Source: Nitrospira sp. (GTDB taxonomy: Bacteria; Nitrospirota; Nitrospiria; Nitrospirales; Nitrospiraceae). Taken from it: 36,679 bases of DNA. Below, piece by piece: positions 21,558 to 30,405 of this stretch (position 1 is the first letter of the stretch; each line of letters opens with the position of its first letter). Both the position numbers and the translations under genes were made by a program. The DNA lies in the NCBI GenBank assembly GCA_013140455.1, contig JABFSU010000066.1, forward strand, positions 1 through 36,679, read 5' to 3'. Under the pieces are notes generated by a model, which worked only from the letters and a program-made list of their open reading frames with translations, ran no database searches and was not told where the DNA came from.

Positions 21558-23192
21558 CTAAAACTCACCCGCCTGCACCACATCTTCCAGGCTATTGATG
21601 TCGAGCCAGTGGCCGACGGTATAGAGGACGCGGATGGGTTGTCCGCGCTTGAGGAGTGCCTGAAGCAGGTGAGGAATCGTGGCTTTGCGGTTGCCGGGTT
21701 GTGCGAGCAGTTCGGTGATGACGGTAGTGATGAGCGTCGCGGCGGCTGGCGAGACTTTGAGGAAGCCCATCCAGACGCCGTGGGTATTGGCTTCGGGAAT
21801 CTCATTGCCGAGTTTCGTGAGGTAGACCTTGGCGTTGAAGGCTTTCCGGGAGTTGGGGAGGCTGCATTCGGCAAAGGCGCCGAGCCGGGAGTACCGGCTC
21901 TGTTCCCGCCAGTTGCTGTCGAGGAAGATCACGCAGTCATCCGGTTCCTGGCAGAGGGATTGGGGAATGTAGGAGTTGAAGAGCACGTCGCCGTAGGAAA
22001 TGAGGGTCTGCTGGACGCGGCCTTTGCGCGACTGCAGGGCCTTGAGCAGGGAGACCAGCTCGCCGGTGTCGGCATACTCCTCGTTGTCGACGTAGGTGAG
22101 ATTCGGGAGATTCACGGTTTCTTTTTTGTAGCCCCGGACGACGACGATGTCTTTGACCCCGACGGCGTTGTAGGCGTCGACAATGCGGGCAAGGATGGGC
22201 GTGCCCTGGACCTTGACCATGGTCTTGGGCTGGTGTTCGGTGAGTTCGCCCAATTCACTGCCGCGTGAAGCGGCCAGGACGATGGCGCAGGTATCTTCGG
22301 CGCCTTTCGGGAGATAGCGGTCTTCAGCCTCTTGCAGTTCCGCAGCATTCTGCAGCCGGAAGATTTCCGACACCGGCGCGACTTTATCTTCGATGGACAA
22401 GAGATGTTCCTGTTCCTTCAACGTGCGCGCAGTCTTCTGCATAGCCGTGACGGAGCTGCGGAGCAAATGGTTGGCCCAGATGACGATCGAGAAGTTGTGC
22501 TGCCGAAAGACATCGGTCGGCGTGGCGTAGTATTTCGTCGGGACGATGACGACCGGGCAGCGATTGCCCCATTCCTGCTTGAACGCCAGGATTTCATCGG
22601 GCACGGCCAGGGCGCTGTGGATCAGGATGCCGTCGGTGCCGGCCTGGCGATAGGCTTCGGCGCGGCGCAGCGCTTCAGCCAGCCCCCAGCCGCAGATGAA
22701 GGCCTCGACCCGGGCGATGATGGAAAAGTGCGGGTCGCTCTGGGCGTCTTTCCCGGCTTTGATCTTGCCGCAGAACTCGTGCATGTCCGCCATGGGCTGG
22801 GCGTCGCCCTTGATGAAGCTGTTCGTTTTGGGGAAGAGCTTGTCTTCGATGCACACCGCGGCAATCTTGCGCTGCTCCAGCTTACGGACGAGGCGCTGCA
22901 TGTTGTTGAAGTTACCGTAGCCGGTGTCGCCGTCGAGGAGAATGGGAATCGTCGTGGCATCGGACATGAACTCAAGGGTTTCGAGCACCTGCGTCCAGCT
23001 GGCTTCGTTATTGTCGCGCACCCCGAATTGGGCTGAGATCGACAGCCCGCTGGCCCAGATGCCCTTGAATCCCGCTTCCTGAACGATCTTGGCGCTCAGG
23101 CCGTTGTGGGCTTCACAGATGAATTCCAGCTGGTCGGACAGGAGGAGGTTGCGGAACTGTTTGGTGGTGCTGAGACCGGGTGTCGAGTTCAT
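21558..23192 (-). CDS. PEP mutase / nucleotidyltransferase fusion
   Basis: Phosphoenolpyruvate mutase forms the C-P bond of phosphonopyruvate, the first step of phosphonate biosynthesis. Residues 1-290 carry the family's key residues: Asp60, Asp87 and Asp89 (DGDTGYGN), and [10 protein letters not shown] at 116-125 with Glu116, Lys122 and Asn124. Residues about 305-544 form a sugar-nucleotide-type nucleotidyltransferase ([22 protein letters not shown]). This arrangement resembles fused PepM-PntC enzymes, where the second domain makes CMP-2-aminoethylphosphonate for lipids or glycans. AAGGAAGGG precedes the ATG. Phosphonopyruvate decarboxylase and the transaminase are not in the window, so the pathway must be completed elsewhere. 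Confidence 0.9.
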
Positions 23193-24140: not shown

Positions 24141-24284
24141 TTCTCTGATTCCTCAGCCGGCTTCGATGACGCCTCACATCCTGCGTATCTTGCCTGTTGC
24201 CGGTTCTAAATGGAATATGGTCTCCGGCCACGGGAGAGTCTTTGCGTAAAAAATGAACTCTGGTACGAGCCCAGCCGGTCTCGA

Positions 24285-24301
24285 TGCTATACTCCGGTCC
24301 C
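24285..24301 (+). promoter_or_regulatory. Extended -10 promoter, probably leaderless
   Basis: TGCTATACT is a perfect extended -10 element ending at 24293, only 8 nt before the ATG at 24302. No -35 box is evident at the usual spacing. Transcription would start at or very near the start codon, and no Shine-Dalgarno site is present. Read by eye. Confidence 0.4.
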
Positions 24302-25258
24302 ATGACGAACACGACGACTCCCGACACAGAGTTCATGCTTTCATTCGGCAACCAGCGGGCGGTGGTCTCGCCCTGGGGCGCGTCCTTGCGCCGGTATTTT
24401 CTGATAGAGGCCGGCGGCAAAGAGGTCGATATCGTCTGGGGTTATTCGGGCGGCAGCCAGAAGAAGGGCGGGCAGGGGGATGTATTGATTCCGTTTCCCG
24501 GCCGCATCGCCGGGGGCCGCTATACATTCGCCGGCGAAAATTTCCAGCTCGAACGCAACGATAAAGAAGGTCCGAATGCGATTCATGGATTTGTCCGGAC
24601 GTTGCCGTGGCGGGTATCCCGTACCGAGGCAAACTGCGTCCTGTTCGACATTCAGCTTGAGGCTGAGCAGTACGGCCGCAAGGGTTATCCGTTTTCACTC
24701 ATGATTCAAGTGACCTATGGTTTAGACGACAAGGGATTGTCCTGCTCGTTCGATGTGCGGAATGCCGGGACGCGCCCCGCGCCGCTCGGGATCGGCTTCC
24801 ATCCCTATTTCACGGTAGGCACCACGTTGATCGATGAAGCCGAGGCCAGGATTCCGGGCGCGGGCTTTCTGGAATTCAACGACAAGCTGGTGCCGACAGG
24901 AACAGTCCTTCCCGCCGCAGGCACCGAGTGGGATTGTCGTGTCTTTCGTCGGATCGGCGAGAAGAAGTTCAATCACTGCTACGTACAGCTCGATCGCGAT
25001 GCGGAGGGGATGGCGACGGCCTCGCTGCGTCATGCCGGGAACGGTCGGGTGGTTGATGTGACGATGGACCGTTCATTCACTGCTATTGTGGTGTACACGG
25101 GTGATGCCATTGCCGATGCCCCGCGCCGCGCGTTCGCCATCGAGCCGATGACCTGCGCGTCGGATGCGTTCAACCATCCTGAATGGGGCTTGAAGCGCCT
25201 GTCCCCCGGAGAACACTTTTCCGGCCGCTACACGATCCGTCACCGGATCGAGTCCTGA
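24302..25258 (+). CDS. Aldose 1-epimerase family protein
   Basis: Mutarotase that interconverts alpha and beta anomers of aldoses. The 318-residue protein has the GalM-type active site: His95 in NAIHGF, His167 in GFHPYF and Glu281 in AIEPMTCASDAF, in a beta-sandwich with the LIPFPGRIAGGRY segment of the family. The start is set at 24302 because an extended -10 element lies immediately upstream; an ATG at 24284 would fall before that element. No signal peptide, so cytoplasmic. It precedes the cellulose locus by 148 nt and could supply sugar metabolism for it, but co-transcription is uncertain. Confidence 0.88.
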   Translation: MTNTTTPDTEFMLSFGNQRAVVSPWGASLRRYFLIEAGGKEVDIVWGYSGGSQKKGGQGDVLIPFPGRIAGGRYTFAGENFQLERNDKEGPNAIHGFVRTLPWRVSRTEANCVLFDIQLEAEQYGRKGYPFSLMIQVTYGLDDKGLSCSFDVRNAGTRPAPLGIGFHPYFTVGTTLIDEAEARIPGAGFLEFNDKLVPTGTVLPAAGTEWDCRVFRRIGEKKFNHCYVQLDRDAEGMATASLRHAGNGRVVDVTMDRSFTAIVVYTGDAIADAPRRAFAIEPMTCASDAFNHPEWGLKRLSPGEHFSGRYTIRHRIES

Positions 25259-25406: not shown

Positions 25407-28400
25407 ATGTTTTGTCACCGGTACACCAAGATTGTCCTGCTCTGTCTGTTCTGCCTGCTGTCTCCCCTCGGTGCCGCGGCTGATGCCAAGCCATCGACGA
25501 CGTCCAGCGACCGGTTGATTCGGCAACAGGACGACCTCTCCGCCCTCTGGAGCTTCTATCGGCAGACCTACATTCGCGCCGGGCGGGTGATCAGTCTGGA
25601 TGAACAGGGCGTCACGACGTCCGAAGGCCAGGGCTATGCCATGTTGCGGGCGGTCTGGTCGAACGATCGCCGCACGTTTGAGGAGGTGTGGCGCTGGACA
25701 CAAGCCTATCTCCAGGTCAGGCCGGACAAGCTCTTTGCCTGGAAGTGGAAAGGCAAGGTCCTGTCGCTGGATGCCGCGACCGACGCCGACACCGATATCG
25801 CGCTGGCTCTCATTCTGGCGTCGCGCCGGTTCGATATTCCTCGCTATGAGCAGGATTCCCTCGCGATTCTCTCTTCCATCTGGGATCTGGAGGTGCTGCA
25901 TCTGAGCACCGGCTCCTATGTCACAGCGGGAAACTGGGCGGTAGATGAAGCGTATCCAACGATCCATGTAGCGTATCTCGCGCCTTATGCCTACGAAGTG
26001 TTTGCGTCAGTCGATCAACGGCATCAGTGGCGGAAGTTGATCGAGAGTTCCTACGCCGTTCTGCATTGGCTCTATGATGTCCAACAGGTCTCGCTCCCGC
26101 CAGAACTGATCTATCTCGATAAAACCTCCGGCCGGTTTGTCATGACTCATCCCAAGTCCGGGCCGGCGGCGGAGTTCAGTTACGATGCGTTTCCGCTGTT
26201 CTGGCGCGTGGCGCTGGATGCCAGGTGGTTCGGCCGTTCAGAAGCGGGGCTGCGTGAGAAGATGCTGGGTTTCTTCTGGGGTGAGTGGAAGGCGCGAGGG
26301 AGGTTCGTCGATCGCTACACGGTTTCGGGGGAGTCGCGTTCGACGCTGGAAGGACTGCCGCTGTATGCGACGGTGCATGCGCTGGCTTCTCAGGAATTGC
26401 CGGAACTAGCCCGGCGGTTGTCCGAGCTCAAGCTCCCGCTGCTCCATGCCAATGCGTTGGCCGGCAAGGGCACGCCGTATTATCTGCACAACTGGCTGTG
26501 GTTCGATCGGGCTGTCGAGCTGGATCACGTACGGCGATACGACGAGTACTTCGCGTTTTTGCGGCCGTTCGATGTGGCAGGGTTCTCCGCACATTTTGCC
26601 TGGGAGCTGGTGGCCGTGACGCTGGTTCTCTTTCTCCTGGCTCGATGGCACTGGGTCTTGAAGGTGGCGTTTCTGGCCTGCGGGTTTGCGCTTTGCGTAC
26701 GGTATCTCGACTGGCGTGCGCATGAGACGTTGAATTGGGTCGAGGCCGGTGGGCCGTTCATCAGCCTGTCGCTCTGGTTCGCCGAACTCTATGCCTTTTC
26801 GACGGTCGCGCTTCTGCTTGTGCAGGTCGGAGTTGGCCGGAAACCGGTGGCATCGGGAGTCCCGATTGCGCCGACAGAATTTCAACCATCGGTCGATCTG
26901 TTGATCCCGATCTATTCAGAGTCCTGCGAGATTCTTGAGAAGACGCTGATCGGGGCGACGGCGATCGCCTATCTCAATAAGCGGATCTTCATCCTGGACG
27001 ACAGTCATCGTGAGGAGGTGCGGGTTCTCGCCGAGCGGTATGGAGCGACCTATTTCCAGGGGCCCAAGCGACATGCCAAAGCCGGCAATTTGAATCAGGC
27101 CCTGTCCCGGACGGAGGGAGAACTGATCGTCGTGTTCGACACCGATCATATTCCGGTCTCGACGTTCCTGAGCGAAACGGTCCCATACTTTGCCGACCCG
27201 CGCATGGGGTTCGTCCAGACGCCCCATCATTTCTACAATCAGGACATTTTTCAGCGGGCGCTCGGCACCGGAGTCCGGATTCCCAATGAGCAGGATCTGT
27301 TCAATCATGCCATTCAGGGAGGGCGGCATGCCTGGGGCGGGGCGTTCTTCGTCGGCAGCGGAGCGGTGTTCCGGCGGGCCGCTATTCAGGAGGTGAACGG
27401 CTTCAATCTGATGAGCATTACCGAGGACATCCATACCAGCCAGCACCTCCATGCCAGGGGGTGGAAATCCGCCTTTGTCGATAAGGATCTCGCAGTGGGG
27501 CTCACGGCGGAGAACCTCTCGTCGTACATTGTGCAACGACGGCGCTGGATGTTGGGATGTCTGCAAATCTTCGTGAAGGACAATCCGCTCTTCTGTCGCG
27601 GCCTGTCGTTGCGGCATCGGGTGGGCTACTTCGCGTCGTTATATTATTTCCTATTTCCCCTGGCTCGCGTCGTGTTCTGGATTACGCCGCTCTATTTTTT
27701 ACTGTTCCATCTCCACCCGATTTTGTCCGATGTCTCGATCCTGGTGGCCTATGTGTTGCCGTTTATGCTGATGCTGCCGTTATTGTCTTCGGTGCTGCTC
27801 CCGAGGTGGCCGCGGTTGCTCTGGTCGTCGACCTATGAGGCGACGGTCGCGTTCCCGCTCTTTCGCTCGATGTTCGATCTGTTTCTGCCGAAGCGGCTGG
27901 GATTCAAGGTCACCCCGAAGGGGATCACGTCGGCGCGCCGGACGTTCGATTGGCGGTCGTCGTCGAGTCTGCTGGTTGCCACGGTGATTACCATGGGGGC
28001 GATCGCGAAAGGTCTGTGGGAGTTCTGGTTTTTCGGAATCGAAAAAGACGCCTACTTCTTCAATCTCAGCTGGGCCGGGGTGAACCTGGTGACGCTGCTC
28101 ATCGGGTTGAGCATGGCCTGGGAGCGGCCGCAGCGGCGTGGAGAGGAGCGAATCAGCCGGCGCATCGACTGCAGGGTGGAGGCTCAGGGGGTGCAGTTCT
28201 CGACGGTCACGGATGACCTGAGTCTGTCCGGTCTGTCATTTCTCACGGCTTCGGCTGAGCCGATCCCTGGAGAGTTTGATGTGATATTGCAGGGACGGAC
28301 GTCGATGACCTGTCGGGCGCGGGTGTTGTATCACGAGGCGCTGTCTGGAAAGCGGATTCGCTGCGGGGTGGAATTTCTGGATGTGCAGGTAGCGCAGCGG

Positions 28401-28805
28401 CAGTGGCTCGTCGTCAATCTATTCGGCGATCCGGTGACCTGGGAGCGTGCGCATGATGCGCGCGTGCGCAGTCCGTTGCTGATGGCCGGGCATTTGTTGG
28501 CCGGATTCTGGCGGTCGTTGAAGGCGCCCGTCACGAGACGGCGGCGGATTCCGCGCCGTGGTTGTCTGGTTCCTGTGCGGATTCAGATCGGCCACGCCAG
28601 ACAGTGGGGGCTGGTACGCGATCGTTCCTCCCATGGCATAGGTGTACTCCTCTTCGGGCGGCCTGCCGAGTCGGCTGTCCCTTGGCTGATGGGCGAGCAG
28701 AAGAGACGGTATGAGCCCCTGTATGTCCGACGGCAATGGCTCTGGATCTGTCGGGCCGGGATACGACCGGCAGATCCGTTAGATTATTCGATCGTTCAGA
28801 AATAG
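25407..28805 (+). CDS. bcsA: GH8 cellulase - BcsA cellulose synthase - tandem PilZ fusion
   Basis: One 1132-residue protein combines parts that are separate genes elsewhere. A signal peptide leads into a GH8 (BcsZ-like) domain, about residues 30-385, with Glu73 (TSEGQGYAM), Asp128 (DADTDIAL) and Asp260 (SYDAFPL). Three membrane helices (about 400-490) follow, including the BcsA-type VRYLDWRAHETLNW segment. The GT2 domain has DD531-532, DTDHIP 578, TED 672-674 and QRRRW 710-714, then more helices with FKVTPKG. A first PilZ (RxxxR 915-919, DLSLSG 937) and a second (RIPRR 1047-1051, DRSSHG 1072) end the protein. It would make cellulose under c-di-GMP control with the hydrolase on the periplasmic side. 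No Shine-Dalgarno site is visible. Confidence 0.92.
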   Translation: MFCHRYTKIVLLCLFCLLSPLGAAADAKPSTTSSDRLIRQQDDLSALWSFYRQTYIRAGRVISLDEQGVTTSEGQGYAMLRAVWSNDRRTFEEVWRWTQAYLQVRPDKLFAWKWKGKVLSLDAATDADTDIALALILASRRFDIPRYEQDSLAILSSIWDLEVLHLSTGSYVTAGNWAVDEAYPTIHVAYLAPYAYEVFASVDQRHQWRKLIESSYAVLHWLYDVQQVSLPPELIYLDKTSGRFVMTHPKSGPAAEFSYDAFPLFWRVALDARWFGRSEAGLREKMLGFFWGEWKARGRFVDRYTVSGESRSTLEGLPLYATVHALASQELPELARRLSELKLPLLHANALAGKGTPYYLHNWLWFDRAVELDHVRRYDEYFAFLRPFDVAGFSAHFAWELVAVTLVLFLLARWHWVLKVAFLACGFALCVRYLDWRAHETLNWVEAGGPFISLSLWFAELYAFSTVALLLVQVGVGRKPVASGVPIAPTEFQPSVDLLIPIYSESCEILEKTLIGATAIAYLNKRIFILDDSHREEVRVLAERYGATYFQGPKRHAKAGNLNQALSRTEGELIVVFDTDHIPVSTFLSETVPYFADPRMGFVQTPHHFYNQDIFQRALGTGVRIPNEQDLFNHAIQGGRHAWGGAFFVGSGAVFRRAAIQEVNGFNLMSITEDIHTSQHLHARGWKSAFVDKDLAVGLTAENLSSYIVQRRRWMLGCLQIFVKDNPLFCRGLSLRHRVGYFASLYYFLFPLARVVFWITPLYFLLFHLHPILSDVSILVAYVLPFMLMLPLLSSVLLPRWPRLLWSSTYEATVAFPLFRSMFDLFLPKRLGFKVTPKGITSARRTFDWRSSSSLLVATVITMGAIAKGLWEFWFFGIEKDAYFFNLSWAGVNLVTLLIGLSMAWERPQRRGEERISRRIDCRVEAQGVQFSTVTDDLSLSGLSFLTASAEPIPGEFDVILQGRTSMTCRARVLYHEALSGKRIRCGVEFLDVQVAQRQWLVVNLFGDPVTWERAHDARVRSPLLMAGHLLAGFWRSLKAPVTRRRRIPRRGCLVPVRIQIGHARQWGLVRDRSSHGIGVLLFGRPAESAVPWLMGEQKRRYEPLYVRRQWLWICRAGIRPADPLDYSIVQK

Positions 28806-28818
28806 AAAGGTGTCAGGC

Positions 28819-30405
28819 ATGTTGTGTCGCCGGTTGTGTGCGCTCAGTGTTCTGCTTCTCATCTCATTCTGGGCGGCGGTTCCCGCGGGGGCCGATGATT
28901 TTGTGGAGTCCTGGTATATGTCCCGGGGCCGTTCCAATCTGGAGATTGAAAACTACAAGGCGGCGATCGAAGCCTTCGAGAAAGTCGTCGAGCGTGACCC
29001 GGGCAACCGTGAAGCCATGCGGAGCCTGGGGGTCGCCTACGAAAAACAGGGGTTGAAGGACAAGGCCATCGAACAGTTCGACCGCTATCTTGCCCGCTGG
29101 GACGACGATGCCGACATCGCCTTTGCCCAAGCGCGGGCGCTGGAATGGTCGCGTTACGCCTATCGCGAGAAGGATATGTTGAAGTATTACCGCATGGGGC
29201 TGAAGCGAAAGAACGATCCCGCGATGCGGTTGCGGTATGCGACGCATCTGGCCAGGCACAAAGAAACCAGTCAGGAAGCTGTCGCGCAGTACGACAAGGT
29301 ATTGGATGTGCAGCCGCGCAATGCCGAGGCCCATCGGGGATTGGCCAAAGCCTATGCCTGGCTCGGGCAGAACGATCTGGCCTTGTACCATGCCAATCTG
29401 GCGCGGCAGCAGACGAAACATGAATCGGGTGATCTGACGGCGCTTCGCCAGGACATGTCGAAGGGACGGGAGCCGGCCGTCGAAGGGGTGATAGGGGTGT
29501 TGGCGCAACCGGAGAAGCCCTATGAGCTGTACGGGTTCCGGATGGGTACGCGCGGCAAACTCGATATCTCGCCTTTTACGACGACCAAAGTGGAGATCGG
29601 GGCCGAGCATTTCTGGAACTCGTCGGAAAATCGTTCCGGCGCCTATCTGTCTCTGGGAAATCAAGTGCGATTCAACCCGTCGAATCGATTCGATGCGGTG
29701 CTGGAATATCATGGCGCGCCGCGCGGCGACGGCCTGGCCTATAAGTTTGAATACGCCTACGACGGGCCATCCTTTTCCATTCGACCCGGCGTGAAGCGGG
29801 AGTTTCGCTACGACTCATTCGCGGCCCTGGCCGGCTCGCGCAGTTCCGGTCAACTGGTGGGTTTGGCCCGGTCGACGCAGTTCTACAGTGAAGTCGCGTT
29901 CGACGTGGATGCGCTGCATGTGACTGTCACGCCCTTTGTCGGTTGGGTGACGGCGGAACAGCTGAAGTCGAACGATCAGGTGGGGGTGGATACGAAGGTC
30001 TCGTTGCCGCTCTGGCAGCAGGACAATTGGGAGATTGCCGGCGAGTACCTCTTCTATCTCACCCACTATGGAGAGAATCAGGGTGGCTTGCAGCCGAGCC
30101 CGCGGGAACCTCTTGCCGGCGGCTATTTCAGTCCGGAAGTGTTTATCAACCAGATCCCCCGGCTGGCTGCGACCTATAGCATGGACAATAAAGATGAACT
30201 GTATTTCGCCGCCGGTCCGGCTCTGCAGTATATCGACGAGGCGACGAAGTCAGCCGTGTTCCGTGTCGGAGGGGATGCGCACGTGGCCTATACCAAGCAT
30301 ATTTCCAAGCCCTGGCTTTTTAAGGTGATGGCGGACTACACGCAGATCGCCAGCATCTACATGCGGATCCAGGTGAATGGACTGTTGGTCTACACCTTCT
30401 ACTAG
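28819..30405 (+). CDS. BcsC-like TPR/outer-membrane porin, short form
   Basis: Probable outer-membrane exporter of the cellulose made by the upstream enzyme. The 528-residue protein has a signal peptide (VPAGADD), about four TPR repeats over residues 30-175 (for example ALRSLGVAYEKQGLKDKAIEQF-type helices), and a C-terminal beta-barrel with aromatic, Gly-rich strands ending in LLVYTFY, the terminal Phe/Tyr typical of barrels. E. coli BcsC is about 1150 residues with many more TPRs, so this is roughly half length. The ATG at 28819 has AAAGG 8 nt upstream and lies 13 nt after the synthase stop; the two form an operon. No BcsB gene follows. Confidence 0.85.
   Translation: MLCRRLCALSVLLLISFWAAVPAGADDFVESWYMSRGRSNLEIENYKAAIEAFEKVVERDPGNREAMRSLGVAYEKQGLKDKAIEQFDRYLARWDDDADIAFAQARALEWSRYAYREKDMLKYYRMGLKRKNDPAMRLRYATHLARHKETSQEAVAQYDKVLDVQPRNAEAHRGLAKAYAWLGQNDLALYHANLARQQTKHESGDLTALRQDMSKGREPAVEGVIGVLAQPEKPYELYGFRMGTRGKLDISPFTTTKVEIGAEHFWNSSENRSGAYLSLGNQVRFNPSNRFDAVLEYHGAPRGDGLAYKFEYAYDGPSFSIRPGVKREFRYDSFAALAGSRSSGQLVGLARSTQFYSEVAFDVDALHVTVTPFVGWVTAEQLKSNDQVGVDTKVSLPLWQQDNWEIAGEYLFYLTHYGENQGGLQPSPREPLAGGYFSPEVFINQIPRLAATYSMDNKDELYFAAGPALQYIDEATKSAVFRVGGDAHVAYTKHISKPWLFKVMADYTQIASIYMRIQVNGLLVYTFY

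Follow-up and report, generated by a model that had tools for sequence, protein, structure and literature searches.

A single reading frame joining a GH8 endoglucanase domain to a BcsA-type synthase in Nitrospira and other bacteria, and its short BcsC-type partner

In the Gram-negative Bcs systems, for which BcsA, BcsB, BcsZ and BcsC of E. coli and R. sphaeroides serve as references, the endoglucanase BcsZ is a separate periplasmic protein. A stretch of 36,679 bp from Nitrospira sp. (contig JABFSU010000066.1; hereafter, the window) raises the question of whether hydrolase and synthase can be one protein and, if so, what such a protein makes and with which partners it acts. An earlier note, made from the letters of the window, had proposed a fused membrane protein that trims glucan at the exit of the synthase pore. 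In this report, we examined the frame, its homologues, its predicted structure and its neighbourhood. The fusion proved real, but the earlier picture was incomplete, as it missed a second PilZ-like domain, a partner gene of BcsC type and the lack of BcsB. Taking these together, we consider it likely that the locus encodes a compact, c-di-GMP-regulated system for the secretion of cellulose (beta-1,4-glucan), in effect bcs(Z-A)-C, whose endoglucanase is tethered at the synthase exit.

The frame lies on the forward strand from position 25407 to 28805, starts with ATG, has no internal stop and encodes 1132 amino acids (aa); we propose to call it bcsZA. Four Pfam domains were matched above their curated cut-offs: GH8 (aa 47-290, E 2.9e-34), GT2 (aa 494-716, E 2.5e-23), Cellulose_synt (aa 666-801) and PilZ (aa 909-1002, E 1.7e-12). 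The GH8 domain thus resides in the same uninterrupted frame as the synthase core, as the earlier note had it. A promoter scan for the gene gave no match, and the two halves could yet be separated by a second start inside the gene or by proteolysis.

At the N-terminus, hydropathy predicts a signal peptide of 27 aa (positions 25407 to 25487; MFCHRYTK-IVLLCLFCLLSPLG-AAADA) with an AxA-type site, and most homologues with an intact N-terminus likewise have a hydrophobic stretch, then small residues close to the expected cleavage site. It is followed by a complete GH8 endoglucanase domain, an (alpha/alpha)6 barrel spanning aa 35-384 (25509 to 26558), in which the acidic motifs SEGQGY (E73), ATDADTD (D126/D128) and YDA (D260) are kept across 20 homologues. 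Phmmer aligned this half with CMCax of Acetobacter (Komagataeibacter) and CelA of C. thermocellum, the catalytic-acid motif SEGQGY as well as ATDAD and YDA being intact, and its best sequence matches are cellulose-operon endoglucanases and CelA; on the NCBIfam BcsZ model NF008305 it scores 88 bits, against a cut-off of 299.

For the synthase half, alignments were obtained with E. coli BcsA and, from the second helix on, with R. sphaeroides BcsA. Its GT2 catalytic domain occupies aa 492-735 (26880 to 27611), and its motifs DD (531-532), DTD (578-580), TED (672-674) and QRRRW (710-714) are invariant or nearly so in the same 20 homologues, so that the catalytic signatures listed in the earlier note for both halves are present and conserved. 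Helices TM5-TM8 and the gating loop FKVTPKG follow at aa 736-905 (27612 to 28121), located by hydropathy, alignment to BcsA and the AF2 model; this loop (FxVTxK) and the Glu eight residues before QxxRW are both kept in the 20 homologues. The stretch that reads FFCGS in BcsA of E. coli and R. sphaeroides is FFVGS here, and the GT2 half reaches 505 bits on NCBIfam TIGR03030 (cellulose synthase, CelA), below the cut-off of 699; these two features mark the half as a divergent BcsA.

A PilZ domain comes next at aa 906-1004 (28122 to 28418), with the motifs RxxxR (R911/R915) and DxSxxG (D937-G942). It is present in 19 of the 20 homologues, in most of which its motifs are kept, those of L064 and L066 being degenerate. 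The tail beyond it (aa ~1036-1121; 28512 to 28769) matches Pfam PilZ at E 0.19 only; it aligns in register with the first PilZ domain (hhalign probability 76%, E 2.4e-5) and forms six strands in the AF2 model, and in most Nitrospira homologues it still has D-x-S-x-x-G and a stretch resembling RxxxR. It is therefore probably a second, divergent PilZ-like domain. The genome itself has nine GGDEF matches, so c-di-GMP signalling is available to a synthase that the first PilZ domain may place under its control.

For hydrolase and synthase to act as the earlier note envisaged, the membrane must separate them. Hydropathy places helices near aa 393-411, 416-434 and 454-472 ahead of GT2, and four more after it; the first three, which we number TM2-TM4 after BcsA, make up together with the junction to GH8 the segment aa ~385-475 (26559 to 26831), delimited also by the homologue and 4hg6_A alignments. 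With GH8 set outside, the mean content of K+R in the helix loops is higher on the cytoplasmic side (1.9 versus 1.05 around TM3, and 4.9 after TM8). Helix count and the positive-inside rule thus predict GH8 and GT2 to lie on opposite sides of the membrane, as the earlier note had proposed, a topology consistent with a periplasmic GH8 and a cytoplasmic GT2.

The full-chain AF2 model, of moderate quality (pLDDT 72.6, pTM 0.48), agrees with the domain assignment: it contains a complete GH8 fold at aa 34-384 joined to BcsA at aa 391-1040. Aligned with VIA-align, the GH8 half matches 1cem (Z 36.6, rmsd 2.5, 326 residues aligned) and E. coli BcsZ 3qxq (Z 34.3, rmsd 2.6, 320 aligned), and lichenases, xylanases and chitosanases, which are also GH8 enzymes, match its fold equally well. 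The BcsA half superimposes on 4hg6_A, from residue 37 of that structure, at 4.3 A over 618 residues (Z 28.3). Some of the VIA alignments begin at model residue 3-18, which could be read as an uncleaved TM1 with GH8 inserted in the TM1-TM2 loop; we did not adopt this reading because the model reaches a pLDDT of about 30-50 in this region, and because the sequences resemble cleavable signal peptides. Between aa 355 and about 411, none of the 20 homologues (51-93% identity) has a gap in the junction, suggesting that the distance at which the cellulase is held from the membrane is important.

The fusion gene forms an operon with a second gene (28810 to 30405, forward strand), which begins 4 nt downstream and encodes 531 aa with a signal, about six TPRs, a 16-strand beta-barrel and a GGYFSP stretch that its homologues have in common. 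A profile of 17 homologues of this product retrieved E. coli BcsC (9b8a, 1.8e-6; 6tzk, 6e-4), and 15 of the 17 match PF05420 (BCSC_C) at E <= 1 (best 6.2e-7), the window protein itself scoring 15.4 bits, short of the curated cut-off of 23.5. Its AF2 model (pLDDT 84) has exactly 16 strands, and Foldseek ranks 1 to 3 are all BcsC, the top structural matches being E. coli BcsC. The predicted architecture, a periplasmic TPR solenoid followed by a 16-strand outer-membrane barrel, is thus that of BcsC, and we designate the protein a short BcsC-type exporter; E. coli BcsC has more TPRs. From Nitrospira to Desulfosudis, the gene immediately after the fusion is BcsC-like in every lineage whose contig extends far enough. 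On the other side, an aldose 1-epimerase gene (24284 to 25258) lies just upstream of the fusion; it is seen only beside the copies of the closest relatives (L032-L034) and hence does not belong to the core system. Further upstream, one ORF of the window (21558 to 23192) fuses PEP mutase and MobA-like NTP transferase domains, as in phosphonate metabolism.

What polymer does this pair handle? The strongest competitor of cellulose is a related beta-glycan, for example mixed-linkage glucan, for which the GH8 half would be the matching hydrolase. The replacement of FFCGS by FFVGS means that product specificity is not fixed by sequence, the TIGR03030 score stays below the cellulose synthase cut-off, and the GH8 fold would suit such a product as well. 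Moreover, in a tree of BcsA proteins all fusions form one clade (support 96/100) on a long stem branch (1.14), apart from the stand-alone BcsA of Nitrospira and from canonical BcsA of E. coli, Acidithiobacillus and Raoultella. Nevertheless, BcsA is the best match of the GT half both by sequence and by structure, the models for PgaC, NodC and MdoH score far lower on it, the top GH8 matches come from cellulose operons and CelA, and the exporter is BcsC-like. We therefore regard a different glycan as unlikely, while keeping it in mind, and favor cellulose as the probable product.

The second issue concerns BcsB. PF03170 found no match in the genome of the window, in the draw of 59 genomes of relatives or in 14 fusion-bearing genomes, among them the complete N. 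moscoviensis; in control searches it detected E. coli BcsB and, in the BcsAB protein of L073, the BcsB portion. In these genomes, a BcsB whose sequence has diverged beyond the reach of PF03170 may have been missed. We know of no characterised Gram-negative system in which BcsA is active without BcsB. According to what PMC7710045 relates of Omadjela et al. 2013, BcsA and BcsB are considered to be the core that suffices for synthesis. Since BcsB went undetected, either the synthase works without it or something else, perhaps the GH8 domain, fills its place.

This last option can be pushed further: catalysis by the GH8 half would then be unimportant, and the domain would serve as a scaffold, for instance as a platform in the periplasm that stands in for BcsB and to which the TPRs of the BcsC-like protein dock. 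The missing BcsB and the fixed junction would suit such a role, and in E. coli, BcsB is the periplasmic platform and touches BcsC (PMC11379886). Yet the acidic residues of GH8 are conserved under strong purifying selection, which a mere scaffold would not need: dN/dS is 0.07-0.10 in GH8 and 0.05-0.07 in GT2, with looser values in the PilZ domains, and the pairwise identities of the GH8 and GT2 halves correlate (r=0.91). Purifying selection acts on both halves, and we consider a purely structural GH8 highly improbable. Scaffolding and cutting are not mutually exclusive, and it is an endoglucanase that is predicted to cut which we retain in what follows.

How widespread, then, is the fusion? It occurs in 10 of 59 Nitrospira genomes, including that of the window, at 64-91% identity to the window protein, and the complete N. 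moscoviensis chromosome (NZ_CP011801) carries it in the same single frame. In these 59 genomes and in 40 more relatives from the order, no GH8 match lies outside a fusion, so that within the genus GH8 was found only in this form. When 246 genomes were drawn evenly across the phylum, nine fusions of full length turned up, spread over four genera and two families. Beyond the phylum, a scan of named genomes revealed fusions in metagenome-assembled genomes (MAGs) labelled KSB1, Myxococcota, Chromatiales, Gammaproteobacteria, Bdellovibrio and Desulfosudis; these are 51-58% identical to the window protein, that is, they are not copies of it, although MAG labels can mislead for single contigs. The single, supported clade makes one origin of the fusion most likely. 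In a plasmid collection, 532 records had BcsA-like or partial matches and none covered 80% of the query, hence no fusion was found there. That the frame results from an assembly or frameshift artefact merging two adjacent genes is practically out of the question: the window does come from a 143-contig draft, and Patescibacteria do have GH8 and GT2 as separate adjacent genes, but the same full-length frame recurs, at 51-93% identity, in numerous assemblies made independently, one of them a complete chromosome, with a junction conserved residue by residue, which rules out chance or sequencing error, the latter a reservation of the earlier note.

Two further observations concern split copies and stand-alone genes. 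MAG fusion copies L054 and L065 are split by apparent frameshifts within or after GT2, probably assembly errors. The stand-alone BcsA of Nitrospira (L041-L044, L046-L048), about 35% identical to the fusion, have neighbourhoods without a BcsB-sized partner; most of these genes adjoin a neighbour of about 233-280 aa, one of which has a sub-threshold BcsS match (PF17036, E 0.009).

Compared to the Gram-negative Bcs systems, the locus shares the BcsA catalytic motifs, channel helices, gating loop and PilZ domain, the GH8 endoglucanase, the exporter made of TPRs and a 16-strand barrel, and the operon logic. It differs in that BcsZ is fused N-terminally to BcsA and replaces its first helix, BcsB is undetectable, BcsC is shortened to about six TPRs, and a second PilZ-like domain is present. 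It is thus a variant of the Bcs system and not a new kind of system. Fusions of adjacent bcs genes have precedents, as excerpts of the literature describe BcsZ-BcsC and BcsA-BcsB fusions in Zymomonas (PMC7112194) and a BcsAB fusion in acidobacteria (PMC9693552); the partners are others, and these excerpts name no BcsZ-BcsA fusion. We found no report of a GH8-BcsA fusion in the open-access literature, which is weak evidence of absence. Tunicate CesA (PMC6523144) also unites a GT2 synthase and a cellulase domain in one membrane protein, but it is an animal protein whose hydrolase is GH6 and C-terminal, after TM7, whereas that of the window is GH8 and N-terminal; it is an independent analogue in function, and the two fusions are not homologous. 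Clostridial ccsZABHI (PMC7710045) likewise pairs a synthase with a cognate membrane-held hydrolase and has no BcsB or BcsC homologue, but its genes are separate, its membrane-anchored CcsZ is not a BcsZ homologue, its CcsB is non-homologous, and there is no fusion.

Closer to the fusion in gene order, the Patescibacteria mentioned above (L074, L076, L078, L079) have a gene for GH8 immediately ahead of one for a cellulose-synthase-like GT2, the two proteins being separate. PilZ was not found in the member scanned, nor a BcsC-like partner by tblastn. This pair is a plausible picture of the unfused arrangement, and synthesis of a cellulose-like polymer by it is possible. In L074 and L076, the pair is followed by a gene for a PMT_2-type membrane protein, and in two Peribacteria MAGs (L080, 4798-10075; L081, 4834-9889) a double-GT2 protein adjoins a protein that unites PMT_2 and GH8, a further hydrolase-transferase fusion.

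How might the favored cellulose system work? The BcsA half would polymerise UDP-glucose on the cytoplasmic side and pass the chain through its own membrane channel, and c-di-GMP binding to the PilZ domain would switch the synthase on. The fused GH8 would sit at the periplasmic mouth of the synthase, held there by the short junction of fixed length that leads into the first membrane helix; a fusion of fixed spacing would provide one hydrolase per pore, at the exit. There, GH8 may cut stray or jammed chains, as the separate BcsZ does elsewhere: in E. coli, secretion depends on the catalytic activity of BcsZ, unrelated cellulases can substitute for BcsZ, and the enzyme is proposed to cut chains that have escaped or become jammed (PMC11379886). 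The trimming of glucan at the pore exit envisaged by the earlier note would fit this scheme. The downstream protein, as a short BcsC, would carry the chain over the periplasm and the outer membrane. The synthase would work without BcsB, or GH8 would take part of its periplasmic place. More tentatively, one can conceive of a two-protein trans-envelope machine devoid of BcsB, in which GH8 would at once cut, replace BcsB, receive the chain and offer a docking site to the BcsC-like pore with its short TPR arm.

It is a puzzle in bacteria, plants and tunicates alike why cellulose synthesis should require a cellulase. A conserved natural fusion sets one hydrolase beside each synthase, and with it the idea of jam clearing can be tested directly, while the absence of BcsB casts doubt on this subunit as a universal requirement. 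The locus, with its two genes, also provides a minimal system that could be reconstituted and engineered, and it would suggest that some members of Nitrospira, a genus of nitrifiers, have a matrix polysaccharide.
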